Origin: a virus
Strand: one strand, 5' to 3'
Virus record (IMG/VR): IMGVR_UViG_3300051212_001215
Span: 1 to 29,597 of that record
DNA: 29,597 bases
Position numbers and translations under genes: made by a program. This document shows, piece after piece, positions 1,212-3,766 of this stretch (within the stretch, counting starts at the first letter, position 1; the number at the start of each line of letters is the position of its first letter). Under the pieces are notes generated by a model that worked only from the letters and a program-made list of their open reading frames with translations, was not told the origin of the DNA and searched no databases.

Positions 1212-2798
1212 TTACCTTCTTACACGTTGTCGTGGGTATAATCTTCCAGAACTTGGTCTTGGCTTATAATTTAGTTTGGGCCATGTGGTGCCAGAATCCT
1301 GCCTTTCCTTGTTAAAATACAAGTATCTATTAGGAGATCCTTGCAAAAATGCATAATCTGAAAAACTTGATCCTACTTCTGTAATTTGATTTTGCTTGGC
1401 AGTTTTAATCAAATAATCTAAGGCCTGATTCTGATTCATAGTTGGATAAGTTTCTAAAATACAGGCAAGAACTCCTGATACTTGAGGACTGGCCATACTT
1501 GTACCTGAATATTTTAATAAAAAATAACTACTATTTCTTGAGTCAGATACCCCAGTTCCTACCATAGCACTTATTATTCTACTTCCTGGTGCATACACAT
1601 CTATTCTTGGGCCACATGAGCTGTAAGTAGCTTTTGATTCATTGGCTAAAGTTGATATAGCCCCTACACAGATGGCTTGATTGCCCCGAGTTGGACTCAT
1701 ACCTCTATGGTAAAAAAACGTGCTACCTCCCCAAGTAAAGCTATTATTATAGTCTTGGCCACCATCTATATCAATCTTTAGACTATTATTACCTGCTGCC
1801 CCTACTATAATGATTCCATCATCGATTGCCATTTCTTGATCAGCTTCTATCGAAGGGCTTACAAAAGGAATAGCATATAAGTATACTCCATCGTTTAATA
1901 GCCCACAACTGGTCAAAAAAGCAGATGTAAGTCCGCTGGTATATTCTACTCCCCTAAAAGTAATCTTTGTTATACTGGATATATCAAAATTAGTTGTATA
2001 CTCATAACCCCAACTATTGTTTACTATAGTAGGATTTTTTCTACCTGTAGTTTGATTTATAGGTTTATTATTGTGCCAAAGCCTAACATAATCAAAGTAA
2101 TCTTCGTTAACAGGATTAATATCTCCACCATACACGTACATATTATAGATATTAGCCTTTCTTGCCCAACCTTGAGTATTACCGGCTACAGTTCCAGCTA
2201 CGTGAATACCGTGTTGGTTATTAGCGCCTGTATATGGCCCATATTGGTACGTTCCAGATGGAGTTGCATGTTGTAACCAATTATATTGAACTACACGACT
2301 ACCTCCTGTTCCATCTGCATTAACTGCAAATTCAGGATGATTAGGATCAATAAATCCGTCCATTATTACAACATCTACATTTCTTCCTTCTGCATTAATT
2401 TGTACTGTACCTGTTTGAGTAGCTGTCCCATCGCTACCCCAATTATTACGTTGAAGACCTTCTATGCAACGTAATAGAGCCCAATTTTTATGGGTATTTG
2501 AGTTGCCACTACTTTTGTCCCAGAAGTTACTATTGTCAGTCCATAAAGGTTTAATAATAGCTCCTTTGTCTTTTGGCGTCAATTCTACTGCCAACACTCT
2601 GGGATCTTGTCTTATTTGTTCAGCTTCTTCGTCTGTGAGCAAATAGTGAGTATTCCTACTTATTTCTCTTCTATGAACAACATCAATAGCTCTATTTGGA
2701 ATATATAAATTACCTCCAGGTGTTTCCATGTCCTCATAGAAATCATCTAAATCCTCAAAATTTATTAGGGTAATTATATATTCTCTTAGTTCGCTCAT
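1212..2798 (-). CDS. Subtilisin-like serine protease (peptidase S8) with N-terminal prodomain
   Basis: A 528-residue subtilase. The catalytic set is complete: Asp147 in [15 protein letters not shown], His196 in QHGIHVAGT, oxyanion-hole Asn337 in GAAGNN and Ser434 in [12 protein letters not shown]. Small departures from the common form are HGIH for HGTH and ASPQVSG for ATPHVAG. Residues about 1-75, ending in [21 protein letters not shown], look like an inhibitor-type (I9) prodomain, so autoprocessing is likely. There is no signal peptide, so it acts inside the lysing cell or on the virion. The C-terminus is basic and proline-rich (residues about 510-528). Its ATG overlaps the stop of the collagen-like gene by 4 bases, which implies coupled expression with a fibre protein. 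Likely roles are maturation of a tail component or cleavage of host surface protein during adsorption; neither is proven. The family call is firm, the role is inferred. Confidence 0.93.
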
Positions 2799-3766
2799 GC
2801 TTCTGCCTGCAATAAAGTTAAAGTAACAGTTATGGTGGCAGAACTACCACTTAAATTAGTAACTGCTGCTGGAATTATATCAGTTACTGGTGATTCATCA
2901 TTAAATCCGTGTACAGCAGGAGCCATTATTATAGTTTGACTTCCTGTGCTGATCACTTCAGTTACAACGCCAGAATCATAATTAGGATCAGCCCCTTGTA
3001 CTCTTGAAGAGTCAGCTGTGCGAGCTGCTGTAGATACATAAAGTCTCACCCATGCTGCTTGACTGGTTTGAATTTTATATAATAAGTATCCTTTAAATCC
3101 ATTAAATTCAATAGTCCCTGTAGCATTATTAGTTAGACTAACTGTAGTGGCTTGAGTAGTTGTACGTGATCCTAAAAATCCTGTGCCAGGAGGTCCTTGT
3201 ATGCCAGGATTTCCTTGAGCACCAGGATTTCCTTGTGGACCTTGTGGTCCTGTATCACCTGTATCGCCTTTTACTCCTTGCGGTCCTTGAGCACCAGGAT
3301 TTCCTTGTGGACCTTGAGCACCTGGAGTACCTGGAGTACCTTGTGGACCTGGACTACCTGGACTACCTGGACTACCTTGTGGACCTGGACTACCTGGACT
3401 ACCTTGTGGACCTGGACTACCTGGACTACCTTGTGGACCTGTGCTTCCTTGAGCACCTTGAGTACCTTGAGATCCAGGTCCTGAACTACCACTACCTGGT
3501 GGTCCTGGTGGTCCTTGTAATCCTTGAATACCTTGCGGACTTTGAAAGCCTTGTAAACCCTGAGAACCCTGTCTTCCCTGTGCACCTTGAGCACCTTGAG
3601 CACCTTGAGCACCTTGAATACCTTGATTTCCTGGTGTTAGGGATATATTTTGAATCCCATCATAAACTTCAGTAAAGTTGTCATTTATTTTAATAGCAGC
3701 TCTACGTATGCTATCTCCAGTACCGTCATTAGCTCTTGTTCCTACATTAATTACCTGTTTGGCCAT
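2795..3766 (-). CDS. Collagen-like fibre protein
   Basis: A 323-residue protein in three parts. Residues 1-45 ([16 protein letters not shown], then INDNFTEVY) form a short N-terminal domain that I recognise from fibre or baseplate-attached proteins of marine T4-like phages, probably the virion anchor. Residues about 46-195 are an unbroken run of Gly-X-Y triplets, first rich in GAQ and GLQ, then GSPGSPGPQ, which should form a trimeric collagen-type helix. Residues about 200-323 ([17 protein letters not shown], later [15 protein letters not shown]) form a compact beta-rich head of the type found at the C-terminus of other phage proteins. It starts two bases after the giant gene stops, with GAGGA as ribosome binding site inside that gene, and overlaps the protease start by 4 bases. 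Phage collagen helices lack proline hydroxylation, so stability must come from trimerising ends. Host receptor binding is inferred. Confidence 0.9.
3339..3440. repeat. Tandem 27-bp repeats coding for SPGSPGPQG
   Basis: Within the collagen-like gene a 27-bp unit beginning CCTTGTGGACCTGG (+ strand) occurs at 3339-3365, 3375-3401 and 3402-3428, and a fourth partial copy starts at 3429. The last two full copies are adjacent and identical. The first is separated from them by one extra 9-bp subunit, CCTGGACTA. Copy changes by slippage would keep the frame and alter shaft length in 9-residue steps. Confidence 0.9.

Follow-up and report, generated by a model that had tools for sequence, protein, structure and literature searches.

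Genomic context of the fibre and protease genes

Why should a phage carry the gene of a protease directly behind that of a collagen-like fibre, among its baseplate genes? The question is raised by a 29,597-base viral record (31.8% G+C), the whole of which is called the window here. To our knowledge, no dedicated protease of this kind is part of the T4 baseplate. An earlier note on this DNA had offered two answers, namely that the enzyme matures the fibre or the neighbouring giant protein, or that it is carried on the tail tip to cut host surface proteins.

The fibre gene (323 aa, 2795..3766, minus strand) and the protease gene (528 aa, 1212..2798, minus strand) share four bases, ATGA, as stop and start, respectively. 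The protease start thus lies inside the end of the collagen-like gene, as previously noted, and the overlap supports the suggestion that the two proteins are synthesized in a coupled manner. The operon on the minus strand runs in the order gp53-like protein, 839-aa virion structural protein, gp5-like hub, gp25-like and gp6-like proteins (18099..26557, assigned by Pfam and PHROGs), a giant 4776-aa structural protein (3769..18099), fibre, subtilase and two more genes. Three of four pieces of the giant protein match phrog_10938, annotated as virion structural protein, and one piece matches phrog_2885, a baseplate wedge subunit (1.8e-13). Judged by these profile matches, the neighbours of the pair constitute a contractile-tail baseplate set. 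On the opposite strand, a calcineurin-like phosphoesterase gene (28445-29455; PF00149 at 24.9 bits, cut-off 21.5) adjoins the operon.

The fibre contains a collagen domain (PF01391, 1.2e-23) with 33 consecutive Gly-X-Y triplets starting at residue 98. Its residues 3-40 (3647..3760, minus strand) resemble the N-terminal baseplate-attachment segment of T4 gp9/10-type proteins; the PF07880 score of 27.1 bits exceeds the cut-off of 25, with these 38 residues covering only 38 of the 175 profile positions, and phrog_677 matches residues 1-40. The last 124 residues (2798..3169, minus strand) form a domain, termed tip A below, which was modelled by AlphaFold2 with a pLDDT of 97.3. The best PDB match by Foldseek is a turret protein (8qpg, E 4.2e-4, TM 0.50), and the best by VIA-align is XepA (6i56, Z 7.5, rmsd 2.9, 96 residues aligned), at a Z level that is common for this tool. 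A PDB sequence search up to E 1 gave no match, while the best BFVD matches are cyanophage fibres bearing the same domain. As modelled, the tip fold has no firm structural relative.

A near-identical contig, IMG/VR 3300010354_015404 (99.1% over 12.8 kb), carries the same pair with a 100% identical protease. Its fibre (L002:9015-10004) has a collagen run longer by six residues and several substitutions relative to window positions 2795-3766, the rest including the tip being identical. Since the fibres of these viruses differ only within the collagen run, the shaft appears to be the fast-changing part. Among the relatives in the protease alignment, the protease nearest to that of the window (64% identity) is encoded by the 399-kb G001. 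Of 17 related viral records, 2 contain photosystem reaction centre genes (PF00124), which are absent from both the near-identical contig and G001. Nothing that would show a marine origin of the virus was found.

The protease is a leaderless subtilase

The 528-aa protein was assigned to the S8 family by a Pfam match to PF00082 (4.6e-32, 111.9 bits against a curated cut-off of 21.8), and phrog_9158 spans its residues 5-524 (5.6e-114). The AlphaFold2 model has a mean pLDDT of 90.1 and a subtilisin fold, superposing on keratinase 5wsl with Z 36.4 over 275 residues (rmsd 2.2); near-ties occur among other proteinase K and aqualysin-type folds (8c4z, Z 36.1; 4dzt, Z 35.7). The residues D147, H196, N337 and S434 are identical in all 63 aligned proteases, which comprise the window and its nearer relatives. 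Profile, catalytic triad and predicted fold therefore agree on an S8 subtilase with predicted activity, and S434, proposed earlier as the nucleophile, is confirmed in this position by the aligned triad and oxyanion Asn.

N-terminal to the catalytic domain, the model shows a beta-alpha-beta-beta-alpha-beta pattern at about residues 5-73 (2580..2786, minus strand), in which E25, P34, R36, R44, S47, T50, E58 and R67 are invariant in the 63 sequences; by eye, we assign it to I9-like prodomains. No signal-peptide-like start is apparent by eye at the N-terminus. The description as a subtilase with a prodomain and no leader thus holds. At the other end, residues 505-510, 512-517 and 519-528 of the tail are unstructured in the model (pLDDT under 50). 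The known families of phage maturation proteases gave no match, PF00082 being the only Pfam hit of the protease at E 0.01; the T4 gp21-type family is present in Pfam. Likewise, no match to the gp38 family was obtained for the protease in profile scans of Pfam and PHROGs at E 0.01.

The fibre tip, not the collagen shaft, accompanies the protease

A tblastn search with the protease matched 40 of 50,697 phage records (33 Synechococcus, 4 Prochlorococcus and 3 marine virus records). A fibre-like gene lies directly 5' of the protease gene in all 18 of these that were inspected, and in 14 of 15 annotated records the gap between the genes ranges from -4 to +1 bases (151 in S-T4 as annotated). The upstream proteins vary in N-terminus and shaft and have in common their C-terminal ~110-124 residues. 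Of 16 that were compared, those of the window (33 triplets) and P-SSM2 (17 triplets) have a long Gly-X-Y run, and the others reach 5 triplets at most. The common part falls into two types, tip A in 12 of the 18 records (plus the window) and tip B in the other 6. A single tip domain was considered and rejected, as the two profiles are unalignable (hhalign probability 0.14%). Both profiles were built from 14 of the phage-record proteins, and the weight of the linkage consequently rests on the later scans.

These scans of IMG/VR covered the best 80 loci of larger lists each, with some contigs common to several scans. When seeded with the protease (8 plus 79 further loci among the best matches), tip A was found directly 5' in 86 of 87 loci, the exception being L008, whose protease has no recognisable tip 5' of it. 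When seeded with the tip (78 further loci among the best matches), an S8 protease came next in 77, and in the remaining locus, L205, an S53 sedolisin-like protease occupies the S8 slot. Seeding with the fibre (best 80) yielded 24 loci with tip A, of which 23 have an adjoining S8 gene; the 24th, L044, reaches its contig end where a divergent, S-CAM1-like protease frame appears by eye to begin. The other 56 fibre-seeded loci, devoid of the tip, served as a control and gave no S8 match within the flanking DNA examined; two of them, L071 and L076, have tip and protease elsewhere on the contig.

Altogether, the IMG/VR loci examined contain 190 tip ORFs, 186 of which are followed directly by an S8 match. 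The four others are those of L044 and L205, the first tip A of L128, and a tip B in L253 that is followed by a tip-A fibre. The 190 ORFs correspond to 139 distinct sequences in 70 clusters at 70% identity, and 67 of the clusters adjoin an S8 protease. In a held-out scan of bacterial and archaeal assemblies, S8 follows the tip in 7 of 7 loci with downstream DNA, while an eighth locus ends at a contig edge; as the assemblies are metagenome bins, these contigs may be of phage origin. The phages behind all these counts are related and do not represent independent samples.

Conservation of the pair in other phages, on which the earlier note had staked its reading, is therefore evident from the 18 records and both sets of loci. 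Its choice of the collagen-like fibre as the conserved partner did not hold up, since the conserved part is the last ~124 residues, that is, tip A. Of the distinct relatives whose N-terminus appears complete, 22 of 107 have a run of at least 10 consecutive Gly-X-Y, and collagen was rejected as the partner on this count and on that of the 56 tip-less fibre relatives lacking S8. With shafts being exchangeable and the tip domain accompanying the protease, the collagen fibre is not supported as its specific partner.

Several variations of the locus were recorded. Tandem protease genes occur 3' of one tip gene in L046, L223, L243, L245, L250, L256, L258 and L262. Other relatives of the protease measure about 850-1020 aa and, where their match is split, have the extra sequence inside the catalytic domain. 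In L039 (7442-10064), two ORFs of 372 and 572 aa that overlap replace the single protease frame of ~896 aa seen in near relatives, a break that may be real or an error. The related loci L371 (G006:155001-175000) and L372 (G009) contain a tip-B fibre, a protease, a tip-A fibre and a tagged 82-aa frame in one cluster, and both tip types coexist also in S-SCSM1.

A tandem C-terminal tag follows tip A

In the alignment of 63 proteases, the disordered tail stands out by two copies of a short motif, RPxxGxx[YFW]P[KR], which in the window take the forms R-x3-G-x3-P and RPxxGxxYPR (residues 499-523; 1230..1304, minus strand). Among rows with the residue present, conservation is 98% for R499, 92% for G503, 95% for P507, 97% for G518, and 100% for R514, P522 and R523. 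Both copies occur in 104 of 122 distinct relatives that bear the last copy, and in 90 of these they are exactly 15 residues apart; the background rate of the loose first-copy form is 3.8% in random 29-residue windows of the same proteins.

Of 133 distinct proteases encoded behind tip A, 118 carry a looser version of the tag, compared to none of 6 behind tip B (Fisher p 6e-6, uncorrected for kinship). Of the 15 misses after tip A, 12 end in a still looser [FYW]PR form, whereas those of L024, L036 and L264 do not. Among 10 distinct proteases that lack a tip directly 5', 8 also have the tag, mostly the second of a tandem pair. At the DNA level, the strict pattern initially matched 18 of 28 tip-A records and 2 of 24 presumed negatives, with the reversed pattern as a control matching 2 in each set. 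Both tag-matching presumed negatives proved to carry tip A, tip B and the protease, and all 24 were then tested for tip A; after reassignment, 20 of the 30 tip-A records match the strict pattern, as against none of the other 22. The former number is partly circular, because some of these phages also served to define the motif, and several of the records devoid of tip A are fragments. Cleaner tests are provided by S-CRES1, S-CBS2, G006, G009 and the bacterial assemblies, which were met after the motif was set or have an unlinked tag.

Twelve complete genomes contain 9 proteins or open frames with the strict motif, always 0-5 residues before the stop. By genome, it occurs in 8 of 10 with tip A (S-WAM2 and S-BM3 being without the strict form) and in neither of two with tip B only. 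Among five complete proteases from bacterial-assembly loci, four have the tag, which in one of them is followed by an extension and lies 422 residues from the C-terminus; the protease of L380 is complete and has none.

The tag is not restricted to proteases. A loose form near the C-terminus was found in 176 of 23,942 open frames in the loci examined, 157 of them proteases; by eye, 11 of the 19 others appear genuine and 8 seem to be wrong-frame ORFs. Tagged proteins of 77-142 aa are encoded two or three genes after a protease-less tip A in S-H9-1, Sf-CH1b, ACG-2014i, S-SCSM1, AG-345-P14 and PSS2, and S-SCSM1_235 is a further non-protease protein ending in the tag. S-CRES1 and S-CBS2 have their tagged frame at a great distance from the tip gene, and that of S-CBS2, annotated as gp010, is located near structural genes. 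Tag and tip A also occur together in siphoviruses, whose tail plan differs. At the level of sequence, the tag is conserved and its presence goes by tip type (A, not B).

Variable content of the slot behind the tip

The S53 protease of L205 (6377-7654) matches kumamolisin (1t1g, E 8.8e-31) and also PF00082 at 43 bits; S53 and S8 belong to the same clan. It ends in the same tag, with a weaker first copy visible by eye. Since the enzyme family has changed here while tip and tag persist, the interface appears to be the conserved unit.

Five complete tip-A genomes (S-BM3, Sf-CH1b, PSS2, S-CRES1 and S-CBS2) gave no match to the S8 profile, and further tip-A copies in ACG-2014i, S-H9-1, AG-345-P14 and S-SCSM1 have no adjoining S8 match. 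In S-BM3, another gene annotated as peptidase S8 (record positions 135315-143261; L271:1-2412), missed by the protease profile, is located 5' of the tip-A fibre. A second cargo family of about 600-780 aa, with the motifs PFKGLP or IKGIP...PCPYYLPDDF, was observed 3' of protease-less tip A (L020:2572-4875, L272:5377-7674, L016:1172-3502, L271:5374-7200 and L014:22980-24950); the small tagged protein that follows it is perhaps an adaptor. Divergent protease-like proteins after tip A (L270:5365-7620 and L044 from about 3770) have by eye an apparent Glu for the catalytic Asp. Read by eye, the apparent Glu of S-CAM1 suggests that catalysis may not always be needed.

Some homologues carry additional domains. 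Laminin-G matches the S-SCSM1 homologue in two stretches (1.2e-25), and copper-binding and esterase matches in the ACG-2014h homologue fall below curated cut-offs. These extensions point to surface contact; the Laminin-G match itself is firm, and those in ACG-2014h are no more than suggestive. In cyanophage proteases of L016 (5995-8067), L018, L020, L021, L027 and L017, a C-terminal extension ends in CxxHxxM, which we take to resemble a type 1 copper (cupredoxin) site; Pfam Copper-bind matches the L017 protease at 0.0014, below cut-off.

Virion evidence in related phages

The S-SCSM1 record labels the protease SSCSM1_228 and its tip-B fibre SSCSM1_227 as virion proteins. We counted by eye 48 coding sequences with this label, compared to 45 proteins identified by mass spectrometry according to the accessible part of the S-SCSM1 paper. 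The label is present on a translational repressor and missing from several baseplate and hub genes, a pattern unlike mere structural annotation; the label therefore probably tracks measurement. For purified particles of the siphovirus P-SS2 (record PSS2), the available portion of the publication gives average peptide numbers of 11, 17.5, 6 and 4 for ORFs 087, 088, 089 and 090, respectively (Table 2, PMC2784084). ORF 087 (78666-80936) is the tip-A protein and ORF 090 (82920-83348) the tagged 143-aa protein. Within the limits of that source, one virion thus contains tip A and a tagged protein in a phage with no S8 match, which supports tag and tip A as virion parts, not the protease step. The S-SCSM1 protease in turn follows tip B and has no tag, so that neither virion shows the protease, the tag and tip A combined. 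For S-CREM1, 14 virion proteins are listed, and the words peptidase, protease and subtilisin are absent from the examined text of that paper (PMC9964418).

Proposed role and alternative explanations

We propose that the fibre anchors on the baseplate through its T4 gp9/10-type N-terminus, with the collagen shaft directed outward and the beta-sandwich tip domain at its end. The protease, made right after the fibre, would be a self-inhibited subtilisin zymogen with a flexible C-terminal tail, whose two RPxxGxx[YFW]P[KR] copies would plug into the tip domain and hold the enzyme at the fibre end of the virion. At contact, it would cut a host surface protein or a protein-rich layer, which may aid adsorption or receptor access. 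For a virion-borne protease plugged on the fibre tip and cutting a host surface protein, with docking, activity, activation timing and substrate as its predicted elements, we estimate a probability of about 0.52. The more general proposal is that of a plug and socket, in which the tandem tag loads exchangeable S8 and S53 proteases and small adaptors onto the fibre tip domain of phages with contractile or non-contractile tails, giving the virion a protease at host contact; its odds appear to us even. Of the two roles offered by the earlier note, the one on the tail tip is supported by the virion labels of S-SCSM1, the Laminin-G fusions and the shared C-terminal tag.

Its other role, namely that of a protease which acts during assembly on the fibre, the giant protein or some other protein of the tail and is in the virion only as a passenger, if at all, would suit a zymogen-type subtilase with no leader that is encoded in a baseplate operon and translated directly after a structural gene. 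It is nonetheless disfavoured, and we consider it unlikely, as tip A lacks an S8 match in the five complete genomes and the enzyme in the slot may be S53, as in L205. Furthermore, Laminin-G domains on a homologue fit surface contact, and a soluble processing enzyme would have no evident need of a conserved tail.

Even with the protease in the virion, the tag could bind another protein of tip-A phages, the tip being an independent receptor-binding head and adjacency reflecting operon order only. The link between tag and tip is one of co-occurrence, and the distance between the tagged gene and the tip gene in S-CRES1 and S-CBS2 is in keeping with this view. However, tip and protease stay together while shafts and N-termini vary, the 6 distinct proteases after tip B have no tag, and the tag accompanies tip A in siphoviruses despite their different tail plan; docking elsewhere thus seems rather improbable. 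Alternatively, the subtilase fold may be a binding head at the fibre end, with cutting secondary or lost in places. The apparent Glu in the divergent S-CAM1 and L044 copies and the non-protease cargo after some tip-A copies agree with such a structural use, but triad and oxyanion Asn are retained in 63 of 63 nearer relatives, window included, and the sole replaced case (L205) is again a protease. We hold this last explanation to be quite improbable, and prefer an active protease docked on the fibre tip.

The virion enzymes known to open the way to the cell are for the most part polysaccharide depolymerases and peptidoglycan hydrolases. If the proposal is true, a widespread fibre-tip protease would point to surface proteins as a barrier or a receptor for many aquatic phages. 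The pairing of tag and tip would give a function to phrog_9158, to many fibres and to small tail proteins that are now hypothetical. The tag may also aid the reading of uncultured phage genomes, as a match to its pattern led to tip A in two records presumed to be without it.

Comparison with known systems

The protease family has been encountered before: phrog_9158 covers nearly the full length of the protein, and members are annotated as subtilisin-like serine protease in the cyanomyoviruses S-H38, Sf-FR1, S-WAM2 and S-H9-1, with no role, partner or tag given. Secreted proteinase K and aqualysin-type subtilases have a similar catalytic fold, whereas the window protease is leaderless, C-terminally tagged and encoded in a phage structural operon. 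In T2/PP01/S16-type phages, the gp38 gene lies directly behind the long tail fibre gene gp37. The protease gene is placed likewise directly 3' of the fibre gene, with the ATGA overlap in the window and adjacency for 186 of 190 tip ORFs. A separate protein on the fibre tip, as described for gp38 of PP01 in the available text (PMC12892980), is the location predicted here; unlike gp38, the protein encoded behind the fibre gene is a protease, proposed to make contact through a short tag repeated at its C-terminus.

Docking by short peptides has also been described. In the branched receptor-binding complexes of K1-5, KP32, Menlow and phiK64-1, a short conserved peptide, which may have no more than 7 residues, is regarded as docking an enzyme on another tail protein, and the anchor proteins carry T4gp10-like domains, according to the accessible part of the report (PMC6872550). 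As far as that source goes, the peptides there are located N-terminally and the docked enzymes are depolymerases, whereas the present tag is C-terminal and tandem, and occurs across phage groups on two protease families. In the literature covered, with subscription journals mostly outside its scope, we recognised no paper on this protease-fibre pair or the tag. Thus, the protease family and gene name, tip proteins encoded downstream of the fibre, and short docking peptides are already known; what appears to be new, within the literature covered, is a tandem C-terminal tag on two protease families and small tail proteins that is tied to one tip domain across tail types.
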